Shown here: piece after piece, positions 1-64,000 of the stretch | Layout: every line of letters begins with the position of its first letter | Position numbering within the stretch: position 1 is the stretch's first letter | Assembly (NCBI RefSeq): GCF_964186585.1 | Contig: NZ_OZ075067.1 | Location: 2,108,001-2,172,000 of the forward strand | Length of the DNA stretch: 64,000 nt | Direction of reading: 5' to 3' | Origin: Microbacterium sp. MM2322 | GTDB taxonomy: Bacteria > Actinomycetota > Actinomycetes > Actinomycetales > Microbacteriaceae | Made by a program: the position numbers and the translations under genes | Notes under the pieces: model-generated | Database searches by the model: none | What the model saw: only the letters and a program-made list of their open reading frames with translations | Told to the model about the DNA's origin: nothing

Positions 1-273
1 GTACAGGGTCTTCGAGATGTTCTCGGCGCCGCCGCGGGGACCCTCGTAGGGGTTCGTCCGGCTCGTTCCGAGGATCGTCCCGCCGACCTTCGACAGACCC
101 TTCACCTCGTGGCGGGTGAGGGGGAAGAAATCACCGTCGACCACGCCGCGCCAGCCATCGCGAATCCCGACGAACTCGATGTCGTAGGTCGTCGTGCCCT
201 TCAGCACGATGCCTCGGATGACGGCGTTCAGGCCGGGGCAGTCGCCGCCGCTCGTGAGGATACCGATCTTCAT
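1..273 (-). CDS. pfkA: 6-phosphofructokinase, N-terminal part (runs off the left edge)
   Basis: Phosphorylates fructose 6-phosphate in glycolysis, in the cytoplasm. Only the first 91 codons are visible. The protein opens MKIGILTSGGDCPGLNAVIR, the glycine-rich nucleotide-binding start of the PfkA family, and later has the LGTSRTNPYEG stretch seen in actinobacterial PFKs. The ATG at 273 follows an AAAGGA ribosome-binding site eight bases upstream. The residues that separate ATP- from pyrophosphate-dependent enzymes lie outside the window, so the phosphoryl donor is not decided here. It is read in the same direction as the helicase upstream, but a strong hairpin separates them, so it is probably its own unit. 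Confidence 0.93.
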   Translation of the reverse strand, partial: MKIGILTSGGDCPGLNAVIRGIVLKGTTTYDIEFVGIRDGWRGVVDGDFFPLTRHEVKGLSKVGGTILGTSRTNPYEGPRGGAENISKTLY

Positions 274-310
274 GAGACGTCCTTTGGTGATTCGGGTTGA
301 TGCTGGGGGC

Positions 311-350
311 GACGCTGCCTCCACGACACTAGCGTCGCGGAGGCAGCGTC
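311..350 (-). terminator. hairpin between the SNF2 helicase and pfkA
   Basis: A perfect 12-bp inverted repeat (GACGCTGCCTCC at 311-322, its complement at 339-350) can extend inward by four more pairs after one mismatch. It sits 17 bases past the helicase stop codon on the minus strand. There is no run of T after it, so it may act as a Rho-assisted or U-less terminator, or as an mRNA 3' barrier. A TAnnnT box for pfkA (TAGTGT on the minus strand) lies inside the loop, so it could also overlap the pfkA promoter. Confidence 0.55.
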
Positions 351-366
351 TGCCAGCGGATCGATC

Positions 367-2523
367 TCAGACGGCTCCGAGGGACTGCCGGAGCAGGTGC
401 ATCAGCGCCGACAGCTGCACGGAGTCGCTCGAGGTCGGGTCGACCGCGTCGCCGTCGAGCGCACGCTGGGCGAGGCCCTGCTTACTGTCGATGAGCTCGG
501 CGATCTTGGTGTCGATCGTGTGCGCCGCGATGATCCGCCACGCGGTGACCGGCTCGCCCTGACCGATGCGGTGAACACGGTCGATCGCCTGCGTCTGCTC
601 GGCGGCCGTCCAGCTGAGCTCGGCGAGGACGACGTTGGATGCGGCCTGGAGGTTGAGGCCGACACCGGCCGCGGTGAGCGAACACACCGCGATGGCGACA
701 TCCGGCTCACCGTTGAAGGCGTCGATGGCCTGCTGGCGGACGGGCGTCGTCTGGTCGCCACGGATCGAGACGGTGCGAAGGCCGGCCGACGCGAAGTGCG
801 CCTCAGCGGCATCCATCACGTCGATGTGCTTCGCGAAGAAGACGACCTTGCCGACCGAGCGCTGCAGCTGGACGGCGTAATCGGCGGCGAGGTGCGCCTT
901 CGCCTGGCCGATGCGTCGCACCATCGTGAAGACGTTCTCGGAGCCGCTGCCGGCAGCCTTCGCCTCTTCGAGTTCGCCGTGCGCGACGAGACGCACGATG
1001 TCCTCGTCGACGTCACCGCGGACGACGCGGTCGCCGCGGGCTTCGAGGATGCGGCGGTACTTCGCCGCGAGGCGATCGCCCAGCTCGCGCTCGGCGGCGC
1101 GGATGGAGCGACCGAACTCGTCGTCGAGCTCGACGGGGAGATCGGCGACGAGCTTGTCGGGCAGGTCGGCGGCGACGTCCTTCTTCTTGCGCCGCACGAT
1201 GCCCATAGAGATGACAGCGGAACGCGCCTCGGGGTAGAACGCCTTGTCGGCCGGAGTCAGGCCGGTCTCATCGAGACGGGCCATGAGCTCGGGACCGGGC
1301 TTCTCGCCGGTGGTCCAGCCCAGGAAGCGCCAGATGGCGTCGAAGTCCTCGACGTCGTTGATGAGCGGGGTACCCGTGAGGGCCAGCAGGAGCGGGTCGC
1401 GCACCTGTTCGCGGATGCGCCCCGCGAGAGCGAGCACGTTCCGGGAGCGCTGCGAGGTCAGGTTCTTGATGAAGTGGGCCTCGTCGACGACCATGCCCTT
1501 CAGGCCGATCGAGCCGAGCCACGACAAGTGGCGGTCGAGGATCTCGTAATTGACGATGAAGATGTCCGCGAAGGCATCCATCGTCTCGCCGTCGCCCTGG
1601 ATGACCGTCGCGCGGCGCTGCGGCGTCCACCGCTCCACCTCGCGCGCCCAGTTCATCTTGACGACGTTGGGAACGACGACCAGCAGCGGGTATGCGTCGG
1701 CGACGGATGCCGCCAGCACCGACTGCGCCGTCTTGCCGAGGCCCGGCTCATCGGCGAGCAGGAAGGCGCGGTGTCCCGTGCGGACGGCCTCGAGGAACCG
1801 CGACTGGTGCGGCATGACGTCGAGGCCCTTGGGCGACAGCCGGTCGAATTCGGGCAGCGGCGGCAGGTCCATGGAGGCGGCACCGCCACCGGCACCCGTC
1901 TCGAACGCCTTGTAGAGGGGGCCCATGAGCTCCCAACCGTCGAGTCGACGGCGCGGCGTGGGTCCCGCGGCGCGGATTGCCGCGTCGGGGGCGAGGAAGG
2001 GGTTCGACTCCTTGCGCGCCTCGATCTGCGGGGGCACGACCTGACGGTCGACGACGCCCTCGGGGACGACCGGCGTCTGAGCCGGCTTCGCGTCGGTGAT
2101 GATCAGCTCGTCCTCGGGCAGGTCGGCACCCGACTCGATGAGCCAGTCGCGTCGCATGCGGCGGGCGACGGGCGACGTCGCCTGATCGACCTCGAGCAGC
2201 TGGATGAGCGAGGTGTCCCGAGCAGCCGTCTTCGCGAGGATCGTCGCGACCCCGTCGAGCCGCTTGAGCAGCTCGGCACGGGCACCGTCGGCGATGTCGG
2301 TCGCCGACTTGACTCGCGCGCGTTCCTCGCGGACGAGGAAGGCGATCACCTGGAACTTGACGCGGTTGGTCGGCCCCAGCTTTCCGCGCTGCGCCTTCGC
2401 CTCGACCTCGCGCACCTTTCGGGCGAGGATCGGGATGAGGGGGGCTTCGTCGTCTCGACGCGACGATGATCCCCGGCGACGCCGAGCGGCGGTCTTGGGG
2501 GCGGTGGCTGCCGTGGTCGGCAT
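367..2523 (-). CDS. SNF2-family DEAD/DEAH-box helicase (SMARCAL1-like)
   Basis: A 718-residue ATP-driven DNA translocase of the SNF2 superfamily. The first 200 residues are basic and of unknown fold. The core follows: motif I DEPGLGKT, motif II VVDEAHFIKN, motif III LALTGTPL, and the C-terminal RecA lobe with AAGVGLNLQAASNVV and the arginine-finger motif DRVHRIGQ. This short core without a large insertion resembles the SMARCAL1/HARP branch that remodels forked or annealed DNA; the substrate is not shown by the sequence. The ATG at 2523 has a good AGGAGG site (CAGGAGGAGC-ATG). The nucleotides upstream are unusually structured. It could serve in replication-fork repair, but no neighbour supports a specific pathway. 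Confidence 0.88.
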   Translation of the reverse strand: MPTTAATAPKTAARRRRGSSSRRDDEAPLIPILARKVREVEAKAQRGKLGPTNRVKFQVIAFLVREERARVKSATDIADGARAELLKRLDGVATILAKTAARDTSLIQLLEVDQATSPVARRMRRDWLIESGADLPEDELIITDAKPAQTPVVPEGVVDRQVVPPQIEARKESNPFLAPDAAIRAAGPTPRRRLDGWELMGPLYKAFETGAGGGAASMDLPPLPEFDRLSPKGLDVMPHQSRFLEAVRTGHRAFLLADEPGLGKTAQSVLAASVADAYPLLVVVPNVVKMNWAREVERWTPQRRATVIQGDGETMDAFADIFIVNYEILDRHLSWLGSIGLKGMVVDEAHFIKNLTSQRSRNVLALAGRIREQVRDPLLLALTGTPLINDVEDFDAIWRFLGWTTGEKPGPELMARLDETGLTPADKAFYPEARSAVISMGIVRRKKKDVAADLPDKLVADLPVELDDEFGRSIRAAERELGDRLAAKYRRILEARGDRVVRGDVDEDIVRLVAHGELEEAKAAGSGSENVFTMVRRIGQAKAHLAADYAVQLQRSVGKVVFFAKHIDVMDAAEAHFASAGLRTVSIRGDQTTPVRQQAIDAFNGEPDVAIAVCSLTAAGVGLNLQAASNVVLAELSWTAAEQTQAIDRVHRIGQGEPVTAWRIIAAHTIDTKIAELIDSKQGLAQRALDGDAVDPTSSDSVQLSALMHLLRQSLGAV

Positions 2524-2751
2524 GCTCCTCCTGAGCGTGACACCGGCGGATGCCGGCGATCGCCGTCAGTGACGACGTTCTTACGGGACCGCGACGGACG
2601 AGTCGCGGCGAGGTGTGTTCCTCGGACCTCCCGGCTGCGGGCACTCGCTTCAGCGAGCTGCGGCGACGGAGGGATCCTTCGGGAGACAGTCTAGCGCGTC
2701 CCCGGCGTCGGACACGTCGCCGCACCGAAGCGGACGCGTACGCTGGTGAGC
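2524..2751 (-). promoter_or_regulatory. structured leader upstream of the SNF2 helicase
   Basis: This 228-base gap between divergent genes holds no convincing reading frame. On the minus strand a TAGACT -10 box lies at 2688-2693, giving a leader of about 158 nt before the helicase ATG. The leader contains consecutive hairpins: a bulged stem around CTCGC-TTCA-GCGAG (2644-2657), CGAGG/CCTCG near 2609-2624, the 7-bp CCGCGAC/GTCGCGG pair near 2589-2608, and CCGGC/GCCGG near 2542-2555. I do not recognise a known riboswitch in it. The deoC promoter lies at the right end. Confidence 0.45.
2739..2744 (+). promoter_or_regulatory. -10 box of deoC (leaderless)
   Basis: TACGCT fits the TAnnnT consensus and ends seven bases before the ATG at 2752. 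Transcription would start at or next to the start codon, which explains the lack of a ribosome-binding site. Confidence 0.55.
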
Positions 2752-3462
2752 ATGCCCACCGAACGCGAACTCGCCGCCACCATCGACCACGCCATCCTGA
2801 AGCCCGAGCTGACCCGGGCCGACGTCGACAGCGAGCTCGACATCGCGGCCGAGTGGGGCGTCTTCAGCGTCTGCGTGCGCCCGAGCGACATCCCCCACGC
2901 CGTCGAGCGGCTGGCCGGAACGGGCGTCGCCGTCGGCACCGTCATCGGGTTCCCCCACGGCACCACCTCCACTGCGGCGAAGGTGGCCGAGACCCGCCAG
3001 GCGATCGCCGACGGTGCGGCCGAAGTCGACATGGTCGTCAACATCGCCGCCCTCCGCTCCGGATTCGACGACGTGGTCGTCGCCGATATCCGCGCAGTCG
3101 TCGAGGCTGCGGACGGTCACGTGACCAAGGTGATCCTCGAGACCGCCCTCCTCGACGACGAGCAGATCGAGCGCGGCAGCCGCCTCACCGAAGCCGGCGG
3201 CGCGCACTTCGTGAAGACCTCCACGGGCTTCGCCGGCGGCGGCGCAACGGCCCCCCACGTCGAGCTCATGCGCCGCACCGTCGGTGCCGACGTGCAGGTG
3301 AAGGCGTCCGGCGGCGTTCGCAGCTACGCAGACGCGCTCGCGATGATCGAGGCCGGTGCCAGCCGCCTCGGTACGAGCGGCAGCGCCGTCATCCTCGGCG
3401 AAGCGCGTCGAGTGGATGCCGGGGCCGACGCGACCGGCGCCGTCGACGACACCTCGTACTGA
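2752..3462 (+). CDS. deoC: deoxyribose-phosphate aldolase
   Basis: Cleaves 2-deoxyribose 5-phosphate to glyceraldehyde 3-phosphate and acetaldehyde in deoxynucleoside breakdown; a cytoplasmic class I aldolase with a TIM-barrel fold. Family marks are IDHAILKPE near the N-terminus, VGTVIGFPHG, EVDMVVNIAAL, the lysine in THV..KV-ILETALL, and the Schiff-base lysine region VKTSTGF, followed by VKASGGVRS. At 236 residues it has the usual length. A GTG at 2746 would add two residues, but the ATG at 2752 sits seven bases after a TACGCT box, so I chose it. The stop is nine bases from the convergent ribF stop. No other deoxynucleoside gene is nearby. Confidence 0.95.
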   Translation: MPTERELAATIDHAILKPELTRADVDSELDIAAEWGVFSVCVRPSDIPHAVERLAGTGVAVGTVIGFPHGTTSTAAKVAETRQAIADGAAEVDMVVNIAALRSGFDDVVVADIRAVVEAADGHVTKVILETALLDDEQIERGSRLTEAGGAHFVKTSTGFAGGGATAPHVELMRRTVGADVQVKASGGVRSYADALAMIEAGASRLGTSGSAVILGEARRVDAGADATGAVDDTSY

Positions 3463-3471: not shown

Positions 3472-4437
3472 TCAGCGTCCGGGCTGGAGGGCTGCGCGGA
3501 CGCTGGTGACGTCGGCATCCATCTGAGCGATCAGCGCCTCGATGCCGTCGAAGCGCACCATGCCGCGGACGCGCGCGGTGAAGTACACCTGGACGATGTG
3601 GCCGTACAGGTCGAGCCCCGTCTCGTCGAGCACGTACGCCTCGACCTGCCGGACGGGCACATCGTCGAACGTGGGGTTCGTGCCGACCGAGATCGCCGCG
3701 GCGTAACGGGTCGCGGGAGCGTAGCCACCGGCATCCGTCCCCTCGTCGACGAGCCAGCCGGCGTACACGCCGTCGGCGGGGATGAACCCTTCGGCCGCCG
3801 TGGCGAGGTTCGCCGTCGGGTAGCCGAGCTCGCGACCGCGCTTGAGGCCGTGGACCACTTCGGCACGCACGGCGTGAGGGCGTCCCAGCAGACGAGCGGC
3901 GTCCTCGACCTGCCCTGCGGCGAGCAGCTCGCGCACCCACGTCGAAGAGACCCGTCGGCCGCCGCCCTGGACGTCGCCGACGATGTCGACGGTGAATCCG
4001 TGCTCCTGGCCGAAGGCGACGAGGAAGTCGGGTGTGCCCGCTCCCCCGCGACCGAAACGGAAGTCGGCGCCCACCATGACGCGGACCGCACCGAGCGCGT
4101 CCACGAGGATCCGCTCGGCGAACGTCTCGGGCGCGAGCGCGGCAAGCGCTTCGTCGAAGCGGAGCACCAGGACGGCGTCGACTCCGGCGTCGCGGAGGAG
4201 CGCGATCTTCTGATCGACGCTGACGAGTGCCTCGGGGCAGAGCTCGGGACGCAGCAGGCTGAGGGGATTGCGGTCGAACGTGACCGCGACGACGCGGGCT
4301 CCGGCATCCGTCGCCGTCACACGGGCGCGATCGATCACGGCGCGGTGACCGGAGTGGACGCCGTCGAACTTGCCGATCGCGACAACGCTCGGGCCGAAGC
4401 CGTCGGGGATCTCGCTCGGGTCGCGGAAGACGATCAC
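3472..4437 (-). CDS. ribF: bifunctional riboflavin kinase / FAD synthetase
   Basis: Makes FMN from riboflavin and then FAD from FMN. The N-terminal nucleotidyltransferase half (about residues 1-185) has AIGKFDGVHSGHRAVI, with the GxFDGxHxGH signature. The C-terminal riboflavin kinase half has GRPHAVRAEVVHGLKRGRELGYPTAN and YAAAISVGTNPTF. It has 321 residues, normal for the family. I start it at GTG 4437, where GGAGGTGG precedes by four bases; a longer frame to 4650 overlaps the upstream membrane protein and lacks homology. The GTGA overlap with that gene indicates translational coupling. Confidence 0.95.
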   Translation of the reverse strand: MIVFRDPSEIPDGFGPSVVAIGKFDGVHSGHRAVIDRARVTATDAGARVVAVTFDRNPLSLLRPELCPEALVSVDQKIALLRDAGVDAVLVLRFDEALAALAPETFAERILVDALGAVRVMVGADFRFGRGGAGTPDFLVAFGQEHGFTVDIVGDVQGGGRRVSSTWVRELLAAGQVEDAARLLGRPHAVRAEVVHGLKRGRELGYPTANLATAAEGFIPADGVYAGWLVDEGTDAGGYAPATRYAAAISVGTNPTFDDVPVRQVEAYVLDETGLDLYGHIVQVYFTARVRGMVRFDGIEALIAQMDADVTSVRAALQPGR

Positions 4438-5325: not shown

Positions 5326-6218
5326 GACTGCTGCTCCTCGGGCATGTTCATGAGGCTCTTCACGTCGGAACCGCGCCGGCCGACGATCCCCACGAGCACG
5401 CCGTCCGGCGCGATCGCGGCGGGCGTCTCGCCCTCCAGGCGGTCGGCCGCGCCGAGCAGACGCTTGCCGTGGCGGAGATCGCGAGCTTCGTCAGCGGTGA
5501 CGGGGAAAGCGCCGAGGAGGGATGCGGCGACACCGGCGGCATCCTTCAGCGGGGCATCCGGGGTCAGTTCCGAGACGGCGTCGGCGACGTCGAAGGGCCC
5601 GACGCGAGTGCGGCGGAGCGCGGTGAGATGGCCGCCGACACCGAGGTCCCCACCGAGGTCGCGAGCGAGCGCGCGGATGTACGTGCCGCTGGAGCAGTCC
5701 ACGACGACGTCCACGTCGATGACGCCGTCCCCGCGACGGATGCCGCGCACGTCGAACCTGCTCACGACGACGTCTCGCGCCTTCAGCTCGACCTGCTCCC
5801 CCGCCCGGGCCAGATCGTACGCACGTCGTCCGCCGATCTTGATCGCCGAGACCGTGCTCGGCACCTGAGCCATGGGCCCGGTCAGCGAGCGGATGCCGGC
5901 GTGGATCGCGTCGTCGGCGACCGCAGCGGCATCCGTTCGGGAGGTCTCGACGCCGTCGGCATCATCGGAGTCCGTCGTGACGCCGAGACGGATGGTGGCC
6001 TCATACGTCTTGTCGAGACCGACCACGTAGGTGAGCAACCGGGTGGAGTGTCCGATGCCGAGCACGAGGAGTCCGGTCGCCATCGGGTCGAGGGTGCCGG
6101 CGTGGCCGATCTTGCGCGTGTTCAGCGCACGGCGGGCCCGCGCCACGATGTCGTGGCTGGTGACGCCGCCCGGCTTGTCGACGAGGAGGATCCCGCCGCT
6201 CCCCTGGGTCTGCTGCAT
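5322..6218 (-). CDS. truB: tRNA pseudouridine(55) synthase
   Basis: Converts uridine 55 in the T-loop of tRNAs to pseudouridine. The 298-residue protein begins with GILLVDKPGGVTSHD, has the catalytic-aspartate motif GHAGTLDPMATGLLVL (Asp near residue 44), and later KTYEATIRLG and YIRALARDLG. The order rbfA-truB-ribF is ancestral, but here mutY, on the other strand, sits between rbfA and truB, so truB has its own promoter: TAGGCT seven bases before the ATG, inside a 16-bp palindrome shared with mutY. The start MQQTQGSGG is not preceded by a ribosome-binding site, which fits leaderless translation. Confidence 0.96.
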   Translation of the reverse strand: MQQTQGSGGILLVDKPGGVTSHDIVARARRALNTRKIGHAGTLDPMATGLLVLGIGHSTRLLTYVVGLDKTYEATIRLGVTTDSDDADGVETSRTDAAAVADDAIHAGIRSLTGPMAQVPSTVSAIKIGGRRAYDLARAGEQVELKARDVVVSRFDVRGIRRGDGVIDVDVVVDCSSGTYIRALARDLGGDLGVGGHLTALRRTRVGPFDVADAVSELTPDAPLKDAAGVAASLLGAFPVTADEARDLRHGKRLLGAADRLEGETPAAIAPDGVLVGIVGRRGSDVKSLMNMPEEQQS

Positions 6219-6241: not shown

Positions 6242-7108
6242 GTGCCCGACCTCGCCTCCCCGCTCATCGCGTGGTACCGCGAGAACGCCCGGGACCTGCC
6301 GTGGCGACGCGAGGGTTTCGGCGCGTGGGGGACGCTCGTGAGCGAGTTCATGCTCCAGCAGACACCCGTCGCACGCGTCATCCCCCGTCTCGACGAGTGG
6401 CTCACCCGCTGGCCGACACCGGCGGACCTCGCCGAAGCTCCGCCGGCAGACGCGGTGCGCCTGTGGGCGAACCTCGGCTATCCGCGCCGGGCGCTGTGGC
6501 TGCACCGCGCGGCGACGGAGATCCGCGACCGCCACGACGGAGTGGTTCCCCGCGACGTCGACGCCCTCCTCGCTCTGACGGGTATCGGGGACTACACGGC
6601 GCGCGCGGTGGCGGTGTTCGCGTACGGCGACCGGCATCCCGTCGTCGACACCAACACCCGACGCGTACTCGCGCGGGCCGTCGACGGACGCTCCCAGCCC
6701 GGCCCGCCCGCCAAGACCGACCTCGCAGCCATGACCGCGATCCTCCCGGTCGACGACGATGAGGCTGCCGTCGTCAACGCGGCGACGATGGAGCTCGGCG
6801 CCGTCGTCTGCACGGCGCGCTCCCCCCGCTGCGAGGCGTGCCCGCTCGCCGACGTCTGCGCGTGGCGCGCAGCGGGCTACCCCGACACCGGCGACGACCG
6901 CCGCAAGCAGGCCCGGTACGAGGGCAGCGACCGCCAGGCACGGGGCGCCGTCATGAAGGTGCTGCGGGATGCCGACGGCCACGTCGCGCGCGCGGAGGAC
7001 GTGATCGCCGAATGGCCCGACCCGCATCAGCGGGACCGGGCCATCGACTCACTCATCGCCGACGGCCTGGTCGAGGCCACCGGCGGGACGTTGCATCTGC
7101 CGCGCTGA
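6242..7108 (+). CDS. mutY: A/G-specific adenine DNA glycosylase
   Basis: Removes adenine mispaired with 8-oxoguanine. The catalytic Glu is in SEFMLQQTPVARV, the helix-hairpin-helix is LLALTGIGDYTARAVAVFAYG, and the catalytic Asp is in VVDTNTRRVLAR. The iron-sulfur cluster loop reads CTARSPRCEACPLADVC (Cys-x7-Cys-x2-Cys-x5-Cys as written here). At 288 residues it lacks most of the C-terminal MutT-like domain found in E. coli MutY, as in many actinobacteria. The GTG start follows TAGGCT by six bases, so it is probably leaderless. It is convergent with rbfA, with six bases between the stops. Confidence 0.94.
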   Translation: MPDLASPLIAWYRENARDLPWRREGFGAWGTLVSEFMLQQTPVARVIPRLDEWLTRWPTPADLAEAPPADAVRLWANLGYPRRALWLHRAATEIRDRHDGVVPRDVDALLALTGIGDYTARAVAVFAYGDRHPVVDTNTRRVLARAVDGRSQPGPPAKTDLAAMTAILPVDDDEAAVVNAATMELGAVVCTARSPRCEACPLADVCAWRAAGYPDTGDDRRKQARYEGSDRQARGAVMKVLRDADGHVARAEDVIAEWPDPHQRDRAIDSLIADGLVEATGGTLHLPR

Positions 7109-7114: not shown

Positions 7115-7546
7115 TCAGTCCTCGTCTTCTTCGCGGGGCTTCACATACGGGTCGGCGTCGCCGGCGTAGGTGCCGGATGCCGCGATACCCGCGACCTCGG
7201 CGTCGCGCTCGCGCGCGGCGCGGAGGAGCTCCTCGATGTGCCCGGCGTTCTCGGGGAGGGCGTCGAGGATGAACTCGAGGCTCGGGGTGAGCCGCGTGCC
7301 GAGCTGACGCCCGACCTCGCTGCGCAGCAACCCGGTCGCCGCCTTCAGGGCCGCGGCGGAGTCCGTGCGCGCGTCGTCATCGCCGTAGACCGTGTAGAAG
7401 ACGGATGCGTGCTGCAGATCACCCGTCACCCGGACGTCGGTGATCGTCACGAAACCGAGGCGCGGGTCGCGCAGCCCCTTCTCGAGGCGCTCCGCGATGA
7501 GCACGCGGATGCGGTCCGCCAGCCGTGCCTGACGTTCTCCGGCCAT
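7115..7546 (-). CDS. rbfA: 30S ribosome-binding factor A
   Basis: Binds the 30S subunit and aids 16S rRNA 5'-end processing. The 143-residue protein begins MAGERQARLADRIRVLIAER, has the DPRLGFVTITDVRVTGDLQHASVFYTV region of the type II KH fold, and LRSEVGRQLGTRLTPSLEF. I use the ATG at 7546, preceded by AGAAGGAGAAAGAC, a strong ribosome-binding site; an open frame upstream to 7675 reads only through hairpins. The C-terminus is acidic (PREEDED). It lies downstream of infB in the same direction, with two hairpins between. Confidence 0.93.
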   Translation of the reverse strand: MAGERQARLADRIRVLIAERLEKGLRDPRLGFVTITDVRVTGDLQHASVFYTVYGDDDARTDSAAALKAATGLLRSEVGRQLGTRLTPSLEFILDALPENAGHIEELLRAARERDAEVAGIAASGTYAGDADPYVKPREEDED

Positions 7547-40016: not shown

Positions 40017-42384
<2,368 letters not shown>

Positions 42385-52911: not shown

Positions 52912-53991
52912 TCAGCCCTCCGAGCCGACAGCCGCCAGCTGGGCCTCTTCATCCGCGGCGATCGCGGAGTCGATGAGGGGCCCCAGCGCGCCGTCCATCA
53001 CCTGGTCGAGGTTGTAGGCCTTGTACCCGGTGCGGTGATCGGCGATGCGGTTCTCGGGGAAGTTGTACGTGCGGATGCGCTCGGAGCGGTCCATCCCGCG
53101 GATCTGCGACCGGCGGGCGTCGGATGCCGCGGCATCACGTTCCTCCTGCTGTTTCGCGAGCAGGCGTGCACGAAGAACGCGCATACCCGCCTCACGGTTC
53201 TGCAGCTGACTCTTCTCGTTCTGCATCGAGACGACGATGCCGGACGGCACGTGCGTGATGCGGACGGCGGAGTCGGTCGTGTTGACCGACTGTCCACCCG
53301 GACCCGACGATCGGAAGACGTCGATCTTGAGGTCGTTCGCGTCGATCTGCACTTCTTCGGGCTCGTCGACCTCGGGAAAGACGAGGACGCCGGTCGTGGA
53401 AGTGTGGATGCGCCCCTGGGACTCGGTCGCGGGGACACGCTGCACACGGTGCACGCCGCCCTCGTACTTGAGGTGCGCCCAAACGCCCTGTGCCGGATCG
53501 GTCGAGGAGCCCTTGATCGCGATCTGAACGTCCTTGTAGCCGCCCAGGTCCGATTCGTTGCGCTCGAGGAGCTCGGTCTTCCAGCCCCGGGATGCCGCGT
53601 ACTGCAGGTACATGCGAAGGAGGTCGGCGGCGAACAGCGCCGACTCGGCGCCGCCCTCTCCCGCCTTGATCTCGAGGATCACGTCGCGCGCGTCGTCGGG
53701 GTCGCGCGGGATGAGGAGGCGCCGGAGCTTCTCCTGCGTGTCGGCGAGCCGCTGCTCGAGAGCCGGGACCTCCTCGGCGAAGGCGGCATCCTCTTTCGCG
53801 AGTTCGCGCGCCGCCGCGAGGTCTTCTTCCGACCCACGCCAGGCGTCATAGGCGGCGACGATGCGGGAGAGCTCCGCGTACCGCCGGTTGACGCGCTTGG
53901 CGCGCGACGCATCGGCGTGCACCGCGGGGTCGGAGAGTTCCTCCTGGACCGCGCGGTGCTCGTCGATCAGCGTCTGAACGGACTCGAACAC
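52912..53991 (-). CDS. prfA: peptide chain release factor 1
   Basis: Ends translation at UAA and UAG. 359 residues: N-terminal helical domain 1, [38 protein letters not shown], and the catalytic [17 protein letters not shown]. The codon-recognising loop is [17 protein letters not shown], as in RF1 rather than RF2. It follows rho by ten bases. prmC, the enzyme that methylates its GGQ motif, lies further on. Confidence 0.96.
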
Positions 53992-56276: not shown

Positions 56277-57209
56277 TTACGTGGCATCCTCCGTATAGTC
56301 CCTCACTGTACCACCCCGCACATCGACGGCCAGCAGAAGCGGCTTCCAAGGCGTGTCGGTGGAGGATGCCGCGTACTCGACGGCCTCGAGCCGGCGGCCC
56401 GGCCCGTCGGCGAGGACGAGGACGCTCGGGCCCGCGCCCGAGACGACCGCCGCGAACCCCGCGGAGCGCAGCCCCCGAACGAGGACGTCGGTCGCGGGCA
56501 TCGCCTCGGCCCGGTACGACTGGTGGAGCTTGTCCTCCGTCGCGGCCATCAGCAGCTCGGGGCTCTGCGTCAGCGCGGCGATGAGAAGTGCGGAGCGGGA
56601 CACGTTGAACACCGCGTCTTCACGCGTGACATGGAGCGGCGCGAGACCCCGCGCGACCGACGTCGACATCGTGAACTCGGGGACGAACACGAGCGGCGAG
56701 ACGCCGCGGTGCACGGCGAGCTTCTTGTGCTGCGGTCCGTTCTGGTCCATCCAGGCGATCGTGAGTCCGCCGAACAGCGCGGGCGCCACGTTGTCGGGGT
56801 GCCCCTCGAGTTCGGTCGCGAGCCGCAGGAGTGTCTCGGGACCGAGGGTGACATCACCCTCGAGCAGGCCCTGCGCCGCCAGCAGGCCCGCGACGACGGC
56901 GGCACCCGAGGACCCCATGCCGCGCCCGTGCGGGATCACGTTGTGCGCGCGCAGACGGATGCCGGGCATCGGCCGGCCGGCCGCCTCGAACGCGTACGCC
57001 ATCGAGCGGACCACGAGGTGCGAGGCATCCGTCGGGACGTCTGCGGCTCCCTCTCCGGAGACGTCGATCTCGAGCCCCGGTCCGTCGAGGGCGGTCACGA
57101 CGAGCTCGTCGTGCACGCTCAGGGCGAGACCGAGGGTGTCGAACCCGGGGCCGAGGTTGGCGCTCGTCGCGGGGACGCGAACGGCGACGCTGCGCCCGGC
57201 GAGCGTCAT
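56277..57209 (-). CDS. thrB: homoserine kinase
   Basis: Phosphorylates homoserine for threonine synthesis. 310 residues of the GHMP fold: [20 protein letters not shown], the ATP loop [20 protein letters not shown], and [15 protein letters not shown] near the C-terminus. Its ATG overlaps the thrC stop by four bases, so both are co-translated. Confidence 0.96.
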
Positions 57210-58288
57210 CCCGCCACGCGGGTGAGGTCGAGCGCCGACGCGACCTCGCTGGTCGCGGCGTCAACGACGAGCGGCTCTACCTGCGTGCCGTCGGGGTTGC
57301 GAAGCGCCCACTGCGGGTCCTTCAGACCGTGACCGGTGACGGTCAGGACGACCTTCGCGCCGTTGGGGATCACGCCCGCCTCGGCACGGTCGAGAAGGCC
57401 CGCCACGCTGATGGCGGAGGCCGGCTCGACGAAGACGCCCACGGTGCCGGCGAGGAGCTTCTGCGCCGCGAGGATGCGCTCGTCGTCGATCGCGCCGAAC
57501 CAGCCGTCCGTCGCGGACCGCGCCTCGAGCGCGAGGTCCCACGAGGCGGGGTTGCCGATGCGGATCGCGGAGGCGATCGTCTCGGGGTTCTTGACGATCT
57601 CGCCGCGGACGAGGGGCGCGGAGCCCTCGGCCTGGAAGCCGAACATGCGGGGCACGCGTGTCGCGACGCCGCGCTCGGCCTCTTCGCGGTAGCCGCGGGA
57701 GTAGGCGGTGTAGTTGCCGGCGTTGCCGACGGGGATGAAGTGGAAGTCGGGAGCGTCGCCGAGCTGGCTGACGACCTCGTAGGCCGCGGTCTTCTGACCC
57801 TCGATGCGGTCGGGGTTGACCGAGTTGACGAGGTGCACCTTGTAGCCGCCGGCGAGTTCGCGGGCGATCTCGAGGCAGTCGTCGAAGTTGCCGCGGATCT
57901 GGATGAGACGGCCGTTGTGGGCGACGGCCTGGCTGAGCTTGCCCATCGCGATCTTGCCCTCGGGGACGAGGACGGCCGCCGTGATGCCGGCGTGCGCGGC
58001 GTAGGCGGCAGCGGATGCCGAGGTGTTGCCCGTCGAGGCACAGATGACGGCCTCGGCGCCGTGCTCGACGGCGCGGGAGAGGGCGACGGTCATGCCACGG
58101 TCCTTGAACGAGCCGGTCGGGTTCATGCCCTCGAACTTGATGTACACGTCGGCACCCGTGATGCGCGACAGCGACGCGGCGGGGATGAGGGGGGTACCGC
58201 CCTCGCCGAGGGTGACGACGGTCGACGCGTCGGTGACGCCCAGTCGATCGGCGAACTCGCGGAGGACTCCGCGCCAGACGTGTGCCAT
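57206..58288 (-). CDS. thrC: threonine synthase
   Basis: PLP enzyme converting O-phosphohomoserine to threonine. 360 residues, the short class: [29 protein letters not shown] with the PLP lysine, [16 protein letters not shown] and [14 protein letters not shown]. One base separates the frame from the hom stop. It is part of lysA-hom-thrC-thrB. Confidence 0.96.
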
Positions 58289-58289
58289 G

Positions 58290-59627
58290 TCAATCTCCTT
58301 CTACCCGCAGGACCGAGACCACGCGTCGGACGGCGCTGGTGGCAGCGAGCCGTTCGACGGTGTCGGCCAGGTCCTGCTCCCGGGCCGTGTGGGTTCCGAT
58401 GACGAGGTGCGCGACGGCATCCCCGCTCTCCCGGGCGACGGCGCCGCCCGAGGTGGTCTGTTCGACGGTCGCGATCGACACGTTCCCGTCGCTGAGGATG
58501 CCGGCGACCGTCGCGAGCACGCCCGGCTTGTCGTCGACCTCGAGGGTGATCTGGCAGCTCGTCCGGATGCGGCCGATCGGCACGATCGGAAGGTTCGCGC
58601 GCGTCGACTCACCGACACCGGGGCCACCGGCGACGTGCCGGCGCGCGGCCGAGACGACGTCGCCGAGGACGGCGGACGCGGTCTGCACTCCCCCGGCTCC
58701 CGCGCCGTAGAACATGAGGTCGCCCGCGGCCTCGGCCTCGACGAACACGGCGTTGTTCGCGCCGTGGACGGACGCCAGCGGGTGCTCGCGCGGAACGAGT
58801 GCCGGGTAGACCCGGACCGAGATGGCTTCGCCGGTCGGCGCGGCATCCGGCTGGTCGACCAGCCGCTCGCACACGGCGAGCAGCTTCACGACGTAGCCGG
58901 CCTTGCGAGCGGCCTCGATGACACCGGCATCCACCGAGGTGATGCCCTCGCGGTGGACGGCGTCGAGCGGGACGGAGGTGTGGAAGGCGAGGCTCGCGAG
59001 GATCGCCGCCTTCTGTGCGGCGTCGTAGGCCTCGACATCCGCCGTCGGGTCGGCCTCGGCGTACCCGAGGCGCTGCGCCTCGGCGAGGACCTTGTCGAAG
59101 CCGAGTCCTTCGCGGTCCATGCGGTCGAGGATGTAGTTCGTCGTGCCGTTGACGATGCCCATGATCCGACGGACGCGGTCGCCGGCCAGCGAATCGCGAA
59201 GCGGACGGATGATCGGGATGGCGCCGGCCACGGCGGCCTCGTATGCGACGGTCGCACCGACCTGATCGGCGGCGTCGAAGATCTCACTGCCGTGCGTCGC
59301 GAGGAGAGCCTTGTTGGCCGTGACGACGTCGGCGCCGGAGGCGAGGGCGTGGAGGATGCGGGTGCGCGCGGGCTCGAGCCCGCCGGTGACCTCGATGACG
59401 ATGTCGGCACCGGCGATGAGGGTGTCGGCATCGGTCGTGTACAGCTCGCGGGGCAGGTCGGTCTCGCGGGGGGCGTCGACGTCGCGGACGGCGATCCCGA
59501 CGAGGTCGAGAGGCGCACCGGCGCGGTCGGCGAGCTCATCGGCGTGGGTCAGCAGCAGGCGTGCGACCTGGGATCCGACGGCGCCGGCTCCCAGCAGGGC
59601 GACGCGGAGGCGACGGGGTTCGATCAT
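58290..59627 (-). CDS. hom: homoserine dehydrogenase
   Basis: Reduces aspartate semialdehyde to homoserine. 445 residues: N-terminal NAD(P) fold with [15 protein letters not shown], catalytic domain with [14 protein letters not shown] and [18 protein letters not shown] (catalytic lysine at the end), and a C-terminal ACT domain (about 355-445, [20 protein letters not shown]) for feedback by threonine. GAGGAG precedes the ATG at 59627, which overlaps the lysA stop by four bases. A longer frame into lysA is not the gene. Confidence 0.96.
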
Positions 59628-61051
59628 GCGGACTCCTCGGGGGTGCGGGATGCGGCCGGTGCGACGCCGAGGTCGCGCGCCAGCAGGTCGTTCTCGTCCT
59701 CGCCGCGGACGATCAGCCGCGCGGCGCCACCGCCGACGGCGACGACGGGGGGACGGGTCAGGTAGTTGTAGTTGCTCGCGAGCGAGAAGCAGTAGGCCCC
59801 GGTGGCGGCGACGGCGAGCAGGTCGCCCGGTTCGACATCCGCCGGAAGGTACTCGGCGGAGACGACGATGTCGCCCGCTTCGCAGTGGCGGCCGACGACG
59901 CGCGTCAGCGCGGGCTGGGCGTCGCTCCGACGGCCGGCGATGCGCGCGGTGTAATCCGCACCGTAGAGCGCCGTCCGGGCGTTGTCGCTCATGCCGCCAT
60001 CGACGCTCACGTAGACGCGCTCGAGGTCGTCCGAGACGCGGACGGGCTTCACCGTGCCGACGCTGTACAGGGTCACTCCCGCGCGTCCGACGATGGTGCG
60101 GCCCGGTTCGAAGGCGAGCTCGGGGAGCGGGATGCCGCGGGTCTCGCACTCGCGCGCGACCGCCGCGACGATCCCGTCGGCGAGCTCGGCGATCGGGGTC
60201 GGGTCGTCCTTCGACGTGTAGGCGATGCCGAAGCCGCCGCCCAGGTTCAGAAGCGGAACGTCGCCTCCCTCGCGGAGGCGTGCGTGCAGCTCGACGACGC
60301 GGGCCGCGGACTCGGCGAAGCCGGCGGTGCCGAAGATCTGCGAGCCGATGTGGCAGTGGAGGCCCGCGAAGCGGAGCGACGGCAGTTCGCGGATGCGGGC
60401 GACCGCCGCCTCGGCATCCGTCAGGGCGAAGCCGAACTTCTGATCCTCGTGGGCGGTCGCGAGGAAGTCGTGCGTCTCGGCGTGGACGCCGCTGTTGACC
60501 CGGACGAGGACGGTCTGGACGACGCCCTGCGCGGCGGCCTCGTCAGCGATGCGCTCGATCTCGACGAGCGAGTCGATGACGATCGAGCCGACACCGACGC
60601 GCACGGCGCGGGCGATCTCGGGGACGAGCTTGTTGTTGCCGTGAAGCCCGAGGTGAGCCGGGTCGGCTCCGGCAGCGAGGGCGACGGCGAGCTCGCCGCC
60701 GCTCGCGACGTCGACGCCGAGGCCTTCCGCGGTGACCCACCGCACGACGTCGGTCGTCAGGAAGGCCTTGCCGGCGTAGTAGACCCGGGCGGTGCCGCCG
60801 TGGCGGGCCGCGGCGTCCCGGAACGCGGTCAGCACCTCGCGCGCACGGGCGCGGACGAGGTCTTCGTCGACGACGTAGAGCGGCGTCCCGAATCGCTCGG
60901 CGAGTTCGGTCGCCGACACGCCGCCCAGCACGATCGCCCCGGACTCGTCGCGAGCCGCCCCAGCGGGCCAGACAGTCTCGACGAGCGCATTCGCATCATC
61001 CGGCGGCAAGAGCCACTCAGGAACGGCGGGGCGGTCGGAGGTGGTGGACAC
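59624..61051 (-). CDS. lysA: diaminopimelate decarboxylase
   Basis: Last step of lysine synthesis. PLP enzyme of fold type III, 475 residues: VYYAGKAFLT with the PLP lysine, LHCHIGSQIF, LNLGGGFGI, EPGRTIVGRAG and SVDGGMSDNARTALYGA. Start GTG 61051 lacks a ribosome-binding site. Its promoter lies about 70 bases upstream, with a GTGCCC/GGGCAC inverted repeat around the -10 box. First gene of the run lysA-hom-thrC-thrB. Confidence 0.96.
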   Translation of the reverse strand: MSTTSDRPAVPEWLLPPDDANALVETVWPAGAARDESGAIVLGGVSATELAERFGTPLYVVDEDLVRARAREVLTAFRDAAARHGGTARVYYAGKAFLTTDVVRWVTAEGLGVDVASGGELAVALAAGADPAHLGLHGNNKLVPEIARAVRVGVGSIVIDSLVEIERIADEAAAQGVVQTVLVRVNSGVHAETHDFLATAHEDQKFGFALTDAEAAVARIRELPSLRFAGLHCHIGSQIFGTAGFAESAARVVELHARLREGGDVPLLNLGGGFGIAYTSKDDPTPIAELADGIVAAVARECETRGIPLPELAFEPGRTIVGRAGVTLYSVGTVKPVRVSDDLERVYVSVDGGMSDNARTALYGADYTARIAGRRSDAQPALTRVVGRHCEAGDIVVSAEYLPADVEPGDLLAVAATGAYCFSLASNYNYLTRPPVVAVGGGAARLIVRGEDENDLLARDLGVAPAASRTPEESA

Positions 61052-61158: not shown

Positions 61159-61950
61159 CTACGAGGCGTCGGCGCAGGAACCGGTTGCCTGGGCGGCCGG
61201 GTCGCGCAGGATCGCGCTGTCGACCTCGAAGTCTGCGACGATCCCGCGGTCCTCGATGGCGACCCCCGTCAGCGTCATCGCCTTCGGCAGGTACTGGGCG
61301 ACGCAGACAGGCCAGTCCTCCAGGAGCGATCCGACGAGCGGGCCCAGCTGCTGGCGGAGTGCATCCGCGGACACATCGGCATCGCCGAGGCGGAAGCTGG
61401 TGGGCGAGAGCACGATCTCTCCCTTTCGGGCCTCTGCCGAGAGGCTCACGCCGACCGGCACCGACGCACCGAAGACGGGGAAGGAGGTGTCGAGCGCGAT
61501 CTCCGGCGCCTTGAGGGTGAACGCGTCAGCGGGGAACCCGTCGACCGTCGAGAGCAGTGCGCGGGTCTGAGCTTCGTCGAGGACGACGGTCGCGGAGGCA
61601 CCCGACCAGTCGGCATCCCGATACATCGGCACGTCCTGCGCCGTCACATCGACGTCCGCCGTGATGCCGTTGAGCTCGACGTCGTCCGCTGTGAGCCGGA
61701 TCTCCGGCAGCTGCCCCACCACGAGCAGCGGGAGCAGAAGCGGCGCGGGGATGTCGACGTCGATCTGCTGATCCGCCGGGAGCCCGGCGCTCTCGACGAT
61801 GCGATCCCGGATGAGCTGGGGCGCAACGATGCGAGCCGTGATCTCCGCGGCGACGAGGACGACGACGACCGCGACCAGGGTCACGACGATCCACACCGCG
61901 CGTCGACGAGGAGGACGTCGCGCCGGTCGCACCTCCGTCACGGTCGCCAC
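61159..61950 (-). CDS. DUF2993 (LmeA-like) membrane-anchored protein
   Basis: 263 residues. A basic start (RPPRRRAVW) and one membrane span (about 19-36) anchor it; the rest lies outside and has the DUF2993 pattern (VESAGLPADQQIDVDIPAPLLLPLLVVG, LTADDVELNGITADVDV). Mycobacterial LmeA binds phospholipids and supports cell-envelope glycolipid synthesis; for this protein only the fold is suggested. Its GTG comes one base after the argS stop, so it shares the argS transcript. Confidence 0.88.
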   Translation of the reverse strand: MATVTEVRPARRPPRRRAVWIVVTLVAVVVVLVAAEITARIVAPQLIRDRIVESAGLPADQQIDVDIPAPLLLPLLVVGQLPEIRLTADDVELNGITADVDVTAQDVPMYRDADWSGASATVVLDEAQTRALLSTVDGFPADAFTLKAPEIALDTSFPVFGASVPVGVSLSAEARKGEIVLSPTSFRLGDADVSADALRQQLGPLVGSLLEDWPVCVAQYLPKAMTLTGVAIEDRGIVADFEVDSAILRDPAAQATGSCADAS

Positions 61951-61951
61951 G

Positions 61952-63619
61952 TCACATCCGCTCGGGAGCGCTGACGCCGAGCAGGTCGAGGCCGTTGCGA
62001 AGGACCTGTCCGGTGGCGTCGTTCAGCCACAGGCGGGTGCGGTGCACATCCGAGACCTCTTCGTCGCCGAGCGGCGTGACCCGGCAGGAGTCGTACCAGC
62101 GGTGGTACAGGCTCGCGAGCTCCTCGAGGTAGCGGGCGATGCGGTGAGGCTCGCGGAGCTCAGCGGCGAAGGCCACGAGCCGCGGGAACTCCTGCAGGGC
62201 GCCGAGGAGAGCGGACTCCGTCTCGTGCGTCAGGAGCTCCGGAGCGAACGCATCGCGAGCGACGCCCGATTCGGCAGCGTTCCGGGCGACGTTGTGCGTG
62301 CGCGCGTGGGCGTACTGCACGTAGAACACGGGGTTGTCGTTCGTCCGCTTCTGCAGGATCTCGGGGTCGAGCGTGAGAGGCGAGTCGGCCGGGTAGCGTG
62401 CGAGCGAGTAGCGGAGGGCATCGGTGCCGAGCCATTCGCGCAGGTCGTCGAGCTCAATGATGTTGCCGGCCCGCTTCGACAGCCGCGCTCCGTTGATGGA
62501 GACGAGCTGGCCGATGAGCACCTCGATGTCCTTCTCGGGGTCGTCACCGGCCGCTCCCGCGAGCGCCTTCAGACGGTGGACGTAGCCGTGGTGGTCGGCG
62601 CCGAGCAGGTAGATCTTGTGCGCGAAGCCGCGGTCGCCCTTGTTCAGGTAGTACGCGGCGTCGGCGGCGAAGTAGGTGTACTCGCCGTTGGAGCGCCGGA
62701 TGACGCGGTCCTTGTCGTCGCCGAAGTCGGTCGTCCGCACCCACACGGCGCCCTCGGCGTCGAAGACGTGACCCTGCGCACGCAAGCGATCGACGGCCTC
62801 GTCGACGAGGCTCGGGCCGCCGTCCGCGCTCTTCGCGTGGAGAGTCCGCTCGCTGAAGAAGACGTCGAAGTGGACGTTGAACTTCGCGAGGGATGCCTGG
62901 AGCTCCGCGAGCTGCAACTCGTAGGCCTTGTCGCGGGCCACGGCCACGCGCTCCTCCTCGGGGAGGTCGCCGATTCCGGGCTCAGCCTCGGCGACGCGCG
63001 TCGCGAGGTCGTCGATGTACGCCCCGGCATAGCCGTCCTCGGGGGCCGGCTCACCCTGGATACGGGCCAGCACGGACCGGCCGAAGCGCTCCATCTGCGC
63101 GCCGGCGTCGTTGATGTAGAACTCGCGGACGAGCGTCGCACCGCTCGCCAGCAGCAAGCGGGCGATCGCGTCGCCGAGCGCGGCCCAGCGGGTGTGACCA
63201 ATGTGCATGGGGCCGGTCGGGTTGGCGCTGACGAACTCGAGGTTGATCGTGTTGCCCTCCTGAGTGCGCCCGTGGCCGAAGGCGGCGCCCGCCTCGACGA
63301 TGGTCTTCGCGAGCGCGCCGGCAGCGGCGGCATCCAGTCGGATGTTGATGAACCCGGGACCGGCGACCTCGACGGAGGCGATGCCGTCGAGCGCGGCGAG
63401 GGCAGCGGCGACCTCCGCCGCGAACTCGCGCGGGTTCGCGCCGATCTGCTTCGACAGCTTCAGCGCCGCGTTGGACGCCCAGTCGCCGTGATCGCGGTTC
63501 TTCGGACGCTCGACGGGGAAGTCCGACACCGTGAGCGCGTCACCTGCGCCGGGTCGTCGTGCCTCGACGAGGGGGGTGACGACGGCGAGGAGGGCTGCGG
63601 CGAGGGCTTCGGGAGTCAT
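61952..63619 (-). CDS. argS: arginyl-tRNA synthetase
   Basis: Charges tRNA-Arg. Class I synthetase of 555 residues: N-terminal tRNA-binding domain (about 1-105), HIGH motif in NPTGPMHIGHTRWAALGDAI, the KMSKS equivalent in NGARLSKRAGNIIELDDL, and the DALRP anticodon-binding domain at the C-terminus (VARNAAESG, SLYHRWYDSCRVTPL). It is upstream of lysA, as in Corynebacterium argS-lysA-hom. It starts at ATG 63619; the 30-base gap to its right contains no clear box. Confidence 0.96.
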   Translation of the reverse strand: MTPEALAAALLAVVTPLVEARRPGAGDALTVSDFPVERPKNRDHGDWASNAALKLSKQIGANPREFAAEVAAALAALDGIASVEVAGPGFINIRLDAAAAGALAKTIVEAGAAFGHGRTQEGNTINLEFVSANPTGPMHIGHTRWAALGDAIARLLLASGATLVREFYINDAGAQMERFGRSVLARIQGEPAPEDGYAGAYIDDLATRVAEAEPGIGDLPEEERVAVARDKAYELQLAELQASLAKFNVHFDVFFSERTLHAKSADGGPSLVDEAVDRLRAQGHVFDAEGAVWVRTTDFGDDKDRVIRRSNGEYTYFAADAAYYLNKGDRGFAHKIYLLGADHHGYVHRLKALAGAAGDDPEKDIEVLIGQLVSINGARLSKRAGNIIELDDLREWLGTDALRYSLARYPADSPLTLDPEILQKRTNDNPVFYVQYAHARTHNVARNAAESGVARDAFAPELLTHETESALLGALQEFPRLVAFAAELREPHRIARYLEELASLYHRWYDSCRVTPLGDEEVSDVHRTRLWLNDATGQVLRNGLDLLGVSAPERM

Positions 63620-63649
63620 AACCCGTCAAGTCTACGTTTCAGCCGATCC

Positions 63650-64000
63650 TCACGCCGACGGCAGGACCACCCAGACGCGGGCGCCACCCGACGGCGAGTC
63701 GTCGATGCCCATTCGGCCGCCGTGCGACTCGACGATGCGGCGGCACGTGGCGAGACCGATGCCGAAACCGGGGACCTCGACGTTGGATCCGCGCTCGAGG
63801 GGCTCGAGGACGAGGTCGCGCTCGTCGACCGGGACGCCCGGTCCGTTGTCGTCGACCGTGATCAGCACGCCCGCGACGACCGTCCCCACGGTGACGGCGA
63901 TCTGCGGGGTGAGTTCACCGGCACCGGCGAACTTCACGGCGTTCCCGACGAGGTTCTGCACCAGGACGCCCAGGAGCGTCGGGTCGGCGGGCACGGACGC
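63650..64000 (-). CDS. sensor histidine kinase, C-terminal part (runs off the right edge)
   Basis: Only the last 116 codons are visible, with the ATP-binding domain of a histidine kinase: N box LVQNLVGNAVKFA, G1 box ITVDDNGPGVP, and the G2 region VPGFGIGLATCRRIVESHGG. The phosphorylated histidine, any sensor domain and membrane spans would lie beyond the window. Its response regulator is not visible. Confidence 0.9.
   Translation of the reverse strand, partial: ASVPADPTLLGVLVQNLVGNAVKFAGAGELTPQIAVTVGTVVAGVLITVDDNGPGVPVDERDLVLEPLERGSNVEVPGFGIGLATCRRIVESHGGRMGIDDSPSGGARVWVVLPSA

Follow-up and report, generated by a model that had tools for sequence, protein, structure and literature searches.

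A genome-wide octamer of Microbacterium with dialects in its relatives and a possible role as a DNA uptake-like word

The DNA analysed here (the window) is a stretch of 64,000 nucleotides, positions 2,108,001 to 2,172,000 of the genome of Microbacterium sp. MM2322 (G000), and its subject is a word, GGATGCC/GGCATCC, that an earlier note had picked out by reading the sequence. Of the genes in the window, those for deoC, atpD, rho, IF-2 and atpA pass their NCBIfam cut-offs, and the murE-like gene passes the cut-off of the murE subfamily. These results agree with the names that the note gave to deoC, atpD, rho, infB and the murE-like gene; mutY was the best match of its gene but fell below the cut-off, and the supposed asparaginase gene has no NCBIfam match at E<=0.001. 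The note had estimated about 100 copies in both orientations, and 111 were counted (51 GGATGCC and 60 GGCATCC). Its expectation of about 15 copies agrees with the order-0 value of 15.1, although the G+C content is 69.9% and not 68%; the third-order Markov model, which it had proposed as a check, gives 30.5. Most copies do extend to a longer word, as it had claimed: the octamer GGATGCCG accounts for 88 of the 111, with 16.1 expected by order 3. GGATGC, GGATGCC and GGATGCCG are the top 6-mer, 7-mer and 8-mer of the window over order 3. All eight word coordinates in the note were exact, and its Asp-Ala, Ala-Ser and His-Pro readings agree with the phases in the called genes. The scarcity that it described in infB, atpD and rho is found in the counts (one word in the IF-2 gene, one in atpD and two in rho), which are too small for significance alone; atpA also has one word.

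The copies of GGATGCCG are listed below on the given strand, and the minus copies read CGGCATCC on the plus strand. Another 23 copies of GGATGCC/GGCATCC in the window lack the 3' G. The last line gives an inverted pair of the word.

1705..1712, plus, GGATGCCG
2548..2555, plus, GGATGCCG
3414..3421, plus, GGATGCCG, Asp-Ala in deoC
5738..5745, plus, GGATGCCG
5891..5898, plus, GGATGCCG
6967..6974, plus, GGATGCCG, mutY-like gene
7175..7182, plus, GGATGCCG
10219..10226, plus, GGATGCCG
13038..13045, plus, GGATGCCG
14707..14714, plus, GGATGCCG
15388..15395, plus, GGATGCCG
18560..18567, plus, GGATGCCG
19703..19710, plus, GGATGCCG
20973..20980, plus, GGATGCCG
21821..21828, plus, GGATGCCG
22406..22413, plus, GGATGCCG, 5' arm of terminator-like hairpin
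22886..22893, plus, GGATGCCG
23645..23652, plus, GGATGCCG
25152..25159, plus, GGATGCCG
26448..26455, plus, GGATGCCG
28773..28780, plus, GGATGCCG, murE-like gene
28884..28891, plus, GGATGCCG
29691..29698, plus, GGATGCCG
33660..33667, plus, GGATGCCG
35892..35899, plus, GGATGCCG
37596..37603, plus, GGATGCCG
39221..39228, plus, GGATGCCG
39292..39299, plus, GGATGCCG
41767..41774, plus, GGATGCCG
43326..43333, plus, GGATGCCG
44613..44620, plus, GGATGCCG
47985..47992, plus, GGATGCCG
49210..49217, plus, GGATGCCG
53122..53129, plus, GGATGCCG
53590..53597, plus, GGATGCCG
55138..55145, plus, GGATGCCG
56364..56371, plus, GGATGCCG
56957..56964, plus, GGATGCCG
58013..58020, plus, GGATGCCG
58496..58503, plus, GGATGCCG
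60130..60137, plus, GGATGCCG
807..814, minus, GGATGCCG (CGGCATCC on plus)
3513..3520, minus, GGATGCCG
3729..3736, minus, GGATGCCG
4302..4309, minus, GGATGCCG
5537..5544, minus, GGATGCCG
5927..5934, minus, GGATGCCG
6632..6639, minus, GGATGCCG
8721..8728, minus, GGATGCCG, IF-2 gene
10762..10769, minus, GGATGCCG
11856..11863, minus, GGATGCCG
13548..13555, minus, GGATGCCG
14667..14674, minus, GGATGCCG
14968..14975, minus, GGATGCCG
16962..16969, minus, GGATGCCG
17517..17524, minus, GGATGCCG
19418..19425, minus, GGATGCCG
19502..19509, minus, GGATGCCG
20056..20063, minus, GGATGCCG, Ala-Ser as GCA-TCC
21399..21406, minus, GGATGCCG
21779..21786, minus, GGATGCCG
22427..22434, minus, GGATGCCG, 3' arm of terminator-like hairpin
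23360..23367, minus, GGATGCCG
23856..23863, minus, GGATGCCG
25487..25494, minus, GGATGCCG
27565..27572, minus, GGATGCCG
27874..27881, minus, GGATGCCG, Ala-Ser as GCA-TCC
29331..29338, minus, GGATGCCG
30357..30364, minus, GGATGCCG
37378..37385, minus, GGATGCCG
38127..38134, minus, GGATGCCG
39247..39254, minus, GGATGCCG
39541..39548, minus, GGATGCCG
41727..41734, minus, GGATGCCG
47676..47683, minus, GGATGCCG
49817..49824, minus, GGATGCCG
50144..50151, minus, GGATGCCG
50257..50264, minus, GGATGCCG
51491..51498, minus, GGATGCCG
51930..51937, minus, GGATGCCG
53784..53791, minus, GGATGCCG
56032..56039, minus, GGATGCCG
58415..58422, minus, GGATGCCG
58841..58848, minus, GGATGCCG
58925..58932, minus, GGATGCCG
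60412..60419, minus, GGATGCCG
61611..61618, minus, GGATGCCG
63328..63335, minus, GGATGCCG
22406..22434, no strand, inverted word pair, terminator-like hairpin between the convergent genes 21378-22397 (plus) and 22443-23573 (minus)

The whole genome (one contig, 3,085,801 bases) carries 2303 + 2175 copies of GGATGCCG, one per about 690 bp, whereas the reversed word used as a control occurs 72 + 100 times. Null models were applied to a sample of 864 kb (40 stretches of 20 kb and the window), in which the density of GGATGCC is fairly even (1.05-2.60 per kb per stretch). The sample contains 1262 copies of GGATGCCG, compared with 186 by order 3 and 98.5 when the sites were masked in training that model (13-fold). 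A home-made gene caller found 776 genes covering 88% of the bases; it is simple, and some starts or genes are wrong, but the contrast with the null far exceeds such error. Within these genes the 8-mer occurs 1077 times against 191.8 (standard deviation 11.5) after synonymous-codon shuffling, a 5.6-fold excess, and the 7-mer 1304 times against 349, so that the shuffle yields 18% and 27% of the copies, respectively. This null preserves synonymous codons and not codon pairs; a codon-pair null would absorb many in-frame copies by construction. All six phase and orientation classes are enriched over the shuffle (2.4-32 fold for the 8-mer, 1.6-21 fold for the 7-mer), the commonest frame is Asp-Ala (539 of the 1304 in-gene 7-mers), and no position bias within genes is apparent. 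Non-coding DNA, in which the note had also placed the word, contains 178 copies of GGATGCCG against 9.4 by order 2 (19-fold). The enrichment is thus confirmed to be real, genome-wide and beyond codon and composition nulls.

GGATGCCG is the core of the word, with weaker preferences outside it; over order 3 the three highest-ranking 9-mers are GGATGCCGC, CGGATGCCG and ACGGATGCC. Several single-mismatch neighbours, those differing towards the 3' end, are enriched 2-4 fold, as expected if perfect sites decay. The least represented neighbours are GCATGCC, at 0.51 of the order-2 and 0.82 of the order-3 expectation, and GGATGCAG, at 0.91 and 0.73 with small counts. Spacing is near random (coefficient of variation 0.99). 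A dnaA-like gene, found by motif, begins at genome position 43, and the origin was therefore placed there. With the terminus assumed at 1.54 Mb, 773 words lie on the leading and 759 on the lagging strand (p=0.74), and any terminus from 1.2 to 1.9 Mb gives at most 50.8%; a polar FtsK-orienting sequence (KOPS) or polar Chi motif is disfavoured on this ground. Density is slightly higher near the origin (Spearman rho -0.32 with distance, p=0.04).

Words per kb of spacer are 2.55 between convergent, 2.40 between codirectional and 1.91 between divergent genes. Inverted pairs GGATGCC..GGCATCC 9-30 bp apart number 34, compared with 15.4 by random placement (0 of 500 placements as high). The pair at 22406-22434 has a predicted folding energy of -32 kcal/mol (z -5.2; 0 of 200 shuffles as stable). 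Within 60 bp there are 57 such pairs, 23 of them outside called genes, including 8 between convergent genes. Some inverted pairs are members of a repeat family. An intergenic repeat family built from inverted word copies (e.g. GGATGCAATGGATGCCG..CGGCATCC) was observed, with several near-identical members within 20 kb (L005:1584-10966, L038:4795-8768 and L039:6894-6926).

The source strain stands near M. oleivorans and Microbacterium sp. 11MF (ComEC 84-88% identical in the four nearest loci). Across 247 Microbacterium genomes the word ranges from 114 + 140 copies in 2.8 Mb (G118) to 3371 + 3467 in 4.4 Mb (G100), and its count also varies widely across 299 genomes from 85 genera of the Microbacteriaceae. 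Outside the family, 148 genomes from 19 families of the same order have at most about 140 words per Mb per strand, compared with about 725 in G000; these densities use rounded genome sizes, and their scope is this order only. The ratio of the word to its reversed control, which is not codon-matched, reaches 8 in other families (G604) and is 26 in G000. Among the families of the order that were sampled, strong enrichment was seen only in the word's own family.

Word-poor congeners often carry other words: CGGAACCA in G155 and G118, and CGGATCCG in G229. A dialect survey covered 40 genomes (29 of Microbacterium and 11 of other genera), with one stretch of at most 20 kb from each. Another 12 Microbacterium genomes had GGATCCG at 2-9 times its order-2 expectation; CCGGATG/TCCGGATG was found in G026 and G142, GGATGGCC in G032 and G245, GGATGCGG in G157 and GGATGCTG in G140. 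In others no strong word was seen in these short stretches. Among 79 named loci, GGATGCTG was found again in AG1240 (another locus, apparently of the genome G140) and in Gd 4-13, GGATGCGG in a LacPavin metagenome-assembled genome, and GGATGGCC in M. barkeri; seven loci from the enclense/testaceum group have GGATGCCA alongside GGATGCCG, and another five loci were classed as weak or blank. In a codon-shuffle test (above all 40 shuffles, z >4), eight words were tried on 25 genomes: 15 genomes had exactly one of them and three had two, 18 in all. The words were picked partly on the same stretches, and hence the replicate genomes and loci carry most weight. GGA is common to all eight words. When the dialect labels are mapped on a tree of HolA from 76 loci, a minimum of 11 changes is required, compared with a shuffled mean of 15.8: the dialects are clustered on the tree yet have repeatedly changed. 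As separate observations, the palindrome CCTGCAGG is over-represented in several Microbacterium (L103/G038, L129/G218, L081-L083/G155 and L197) and may be a second genome word, and small samples of other genera gave the weaker related words GGCGGATC, AGGATCC and GCGGATCG (L132/G251, L130/G250 and L093-L095/G297).

Conservation was followed in nine pairwise alignments with relatives at 80-89% identity, covering two regions only, so that a given site is counted repeatedly and the figures are not independent of one another. Where Asp is conserved, GAT is kept at 84 of 130 codons within words but at 136 of 499 elsewhere (2.4-fold); the figures for GCA are 60 of 79 and 88 of 419 (3.6-fold). Whole words are kept in 49 of 69 and 50 of 71 cases in the two larger comparisons, against 0.39 and 0.42 for controls of the same composition. 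This synonymous conservation suggests that the words are maintained by drive or selection. A mobile insert of 14.1 kb, outside the window (G000:C1:1686109-1700236), contains 1 word, compared with 25 by genome density and 2.6 by its own composition. It encodes a large serine recombinase of 541 amino acids, and this integrase as a query gave distant matches only. Eight Microbacterium phages, gathered with the Min1 terminase and an NrdH-like phage glutaredoxin as queries, have the 8-mer at 0.73-2.9 times their own codon null; three are below 1, none significantly, four lie at 1.45-1.65, and the 7-mer is modestly raised in several. The highest value belongs to Efeko (L275), a small phage of Microbacterium paraoxydans (17.5 kb), and the other seven lie at 0.73-1.65. 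Two control phages of other genera have 5 copies against 2.2 and 4 against 2.8 by the codon null.

The source genome encodes an apparent competence machinery, as judged from genes alone: comEA and comEC (open frames with their domains), tadA, tadB, tadC, an flp-like gene, two TadE-like genes and a Tad gene. It has two T2SSE ATPases over the cut-off, at least one of them in a Tad operon. The Tad operon genes (tadA, tadB, tadC, flp and three TadE/Tad-like pseudopilins) recur in 16-19 of 20 loci. Every one of 80 genomes in a mixed set has a ComEC match, a partial one in G103, G142 and G245, and 22 of the 80 have a strong PilB-like match (E <1e-130). A Tad pseudopilin homologue is present in 41 of 41 Microbacterium genomes; of nine genomes from other genera, the three with the GGATGCC word, and no others, have it. 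It gives no account of the blank congeners. A profile search found it in 58 of 80 other genera; at a cut-off of 500 words per Mb, 23 of the 24 genera at or above it and 35 of the 56 below have the pseudopilin (p=1.3e-3, uncorrected for phylogeny). The same association holds at cut-offs of 300, 400 and 600 (p=0.0017, 0.0008 and 0.027, likewise uncorrected), and in a joint regression on density over 71 genomes of at least 2 Mb, with the same proviso, the Tad pseudopilin has t=4.1 and PilB t=1.5. A canonical type IV pilus was rejected as the candidate, with no strong PilB-like match in G000, no within-genus pattern and a weaker relation than Tad across the 80 genera. The presence of ComEC or ComEA and the sequence of ComEA were also rejected as dialect determinants, since they gave no signal; 12 of the 30 short ComEC loci and 77 of the 80 longer ones yielded a ComEA sequence, with the rows L149, L173, L191 and L198 in a wrong frame. 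The ComEA proteins of M. gallinarum and strain CFH 31415 (L163 and L169, both word-poor) have a common Pro-to-Glu change in the first helix-hairpin-helix (RIGEAMA). The window itself also encodes, at 34636-37248 on the minus strand, an 870-residue ATPase of the FtsK/SpoIIIE type, similar to EccC/EssC of type VII secretion and under every curated cut-off.

GGATGCCG is best read as the local dialect of a DNA-uptake-sequence-like word of the Microbacteriaceae, with a probability of about 0.58. This reading fits best because of the dialects, the occurrence on both strands and in coding and non-coding DNA, the inverted pairs, the maintenance and the near-absence from the mobile insert. The features expected of a DNA uptake sequence (DUS) or uptake signal sequence (USS) were found in turn: a short word far above chance on both strands, copies both inside and outside genes, closely spaced inverted pairs in excess and in part located at the ends of genes, synonymous conservation of the words, dialects in relatives with a shared core, and encoded competence genes. 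In what the sequence makes visible the word behaves like a DNA uptake sequence, and it is a putative member of that class. In the proposed mechanism, a putative surface DNA receptor belonging to the competence apparatus would bind word-bearing DNA more tightly; the likeliest candidate is some part of the Tad pilus operon acting together with ComEA-ComEC. Such DNA would be taken up more often and then recombined into the chromosome by homology; the word would accumulate by molecular drive wherever either strand tolerates it and be regenerated upon decay, and a lineage shift in receptor specificity might let a new dialect displace the old. More tentatively, and with somewhat less than even confidence, this may be a Gram-positive uptake system in which the competence pilus that recognises a GGA-cored word is of the Tad type and not of the canonical type IV, with a specificity that shifts repeatedly within one genus, so that about eight dialect words would split the genus into potential genetic-exchange groups.

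Several results weigh against this interpretation. Seven of the 25 genomes in the codon-shuffle test had none of the eight words (G038, which is M. barkeri, G245, G201, G281, G260, G160 and G202). The two most distant relatives keep words in 9 of 30 and 12 of 30 cases, with controls of 0.31 and 0.29, and genes contain 34 of the 57 inverted pairs spaced within 60 bp. The phage Efeko has 13 copies of GGATGCCG against 4.5 by the codon null (2.9-fold), which simple uptake drive does not predict. The 14.1-kb element splits the tad operon of G000 between flp and tadC-tadB-tadA. A strong PilB-like match is absent from G000, and in the 80 genomes its presence has no relation to density within the genus. 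No tested gene divides word-bearing from word-less Microbacterium (ComEC 80 of 80, TadE-like 41 of 41). The helix-hairpin-helix of ComEA does not follow dialect, and the aligned Tad pseudopilins, compared by eye, have no residue pattern that does. The Tad association across genera, besides being uncorrected for phylogeny, has dense exceptions without the pseudopilin (G289 with 617 words per Mb and G249 with 413); its profile was built from 18 sequences, 17 of Microbacterium and one other, and 4 of 84 genera were left out for low completeness.

The alternative that survives best, itself unlikely, is a Chi-like or self-recognition signal: a helicase-nuclease (e.g. AdnAB) or a defence nuclease would spare or recombine word-bearing DNA, and the chromosome would be selected to carry the word. 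The genome-wide spread and maintenance would suit it, as would the excess in Efeko and in four other phages, and a fast-evolving nuclease could drive the dialects. However, the strands are even, the word, with about 1.45 copies per kb, has a much higher density than Chi, three of the eight phages are slightly under the codon null, and RecC (PF04257) was found in 0 of 80 genomes, in which AddAB and AdnAB were not searched. A site for nucleoid architecture, segregation or condensation, bound by an abundant protein with lineage-varying specificity, seems improbable. Near-random spacing, whole-genome coverage and the slight rise towards the origin would agree with it; orientation and replichore bias are absent, every coding frame is used, and several dialects in one genus would need repeated selective rewiring of very many sites. 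Still more doubtful is a word linked to methylation or restriction and enriched as a methylated self mark. GGATG and GCATC are known type IIS sites, the dialects resemble the fast turnover of restriction specificities, and some of their words contain familiar sites such as GGATCC; but restriction sites are mostly avoided and not enriched, and none of the eight Microbacterium phages is significantly low. Context-biased mutation, or mismatch repair of the very-short-patch kind that turns near-words into the word, has very little probability: it would hit coding and non-coding DNA alike, and GCATGCC is at half of its order-2 expectation, but no neighbour is low under both models and several are enriched. 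The codon or composition bias of a high-G+C actinobacterium can practically be dismissed, as far as a null on codons and not codon pairs can tell, for although Asp-Ala is the most used frame and some genomes of other families exceed the reversed control, the word stands far above the codon shuffle and the non-coding expectation, and its density is low in other families and in congeners with other dialects.

The interpretation of the earlier note is thus partly supported. Its view that neither orientation dominates is borne out by the strand balance, and the polar KOPS or Chi motif to which it objected is disfavoured by this balance and by the RecC search. Of the options it offered, a DNA-uptake-like word fits best. 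The evidence disfavours a restriction target, and a site for the nucleoid or for segregation is improbable, the dialects being hard to explain by such a site. It had named an equal frequency under a codon-pair-preserving null, or equal abundance in all high-G+C actinobacteria through codon bias alone, as what would undo its claim; the codon shuffle, which does not preserve codon pairs, falls well short of the counts, and within the order the other families fall well short of the density. The comparisons it proposed gave no strand skew, near-random spacing, and words kept above background at orthologous positions, save in the two most distant relatives.

In the open-licence literature of PubMed Central, GGATGCCG was not found as a whole word; GGATGCC together with Microbacterium gave matches, none of them on such a word by title or start of abstract. 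Searches on uptake sequences and over-represented oligomers gave no uptake word of Actinobacteria among the matches listed, and the accessible main text of a study of abundant octamers (PMC2843746) contains neither Microbacterium nor GGATGCC. Were GGATGCCG an uptake word, Gram-positive actinobacteria would be naturally transformable and able to tell self from non-self DNA, and transformation would shape Microbacterium genomes so strongly that codon choice is overruled at thousands of positions. The dialect series of one genus could then be used to find the receptor and to test dialect limits on gene exchange. If it is not, something else must read a word that is so strongly enriched across the genome and switches between lineages, and that would be equally interesting.

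Several known systems may be compared with the word. Chi sites are short, frequent, species-specific and polar words that are read by RecBCD/AddAB; the Microbacterium word is likewise short, frequent and species-specific, but it has no polarity, and a RecC match is absent from the 80 genomes searched. HIP1 of cyanobacteria is a palindromic octamer that is extremely over-represented genome-wide. The Microbacterium word is also an octamer with extreme over-representation across its genome, but HIP1 is a palindrome, and no comparable dialect series is known for it.

The DUS dialects of the Neisseriaceae, with the receptor ComP, share a common 3-nucleotide core, CTG, and inverted DUS pairs are described at convergent gene ends in association with terminators (PMC3630211). 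The Microbacterium word is similar in its thousands of short copies per genome in coding and intergenic DNA, its inverted pairs with terminators, and its family of dialects around a 3-nucleotide core, here GGA (PMC3630211). Unlike the DUS, the word belongs to a Gram-positive actinobacterium whose genome has two T2SSE ATPases, no strong PilB-like match and no identified counterpart of ComP; several dialects occur within one genus, and one of the words, CGGATCCG, is palindromic. The USS of the Pasteurellaceae is also an over-represented word with divergent dialects, for which ComN/PpdA is the predicted receptor and minor pilins are the suspected readers (PMC12616744); it differs in phylum and in word, and covariation of pilins with dialect was not seen by eye in the relatives of G000. 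Overall, the word and its dialects resemble the DNA uptake words of Neisseria, Haemophilus and their kin.

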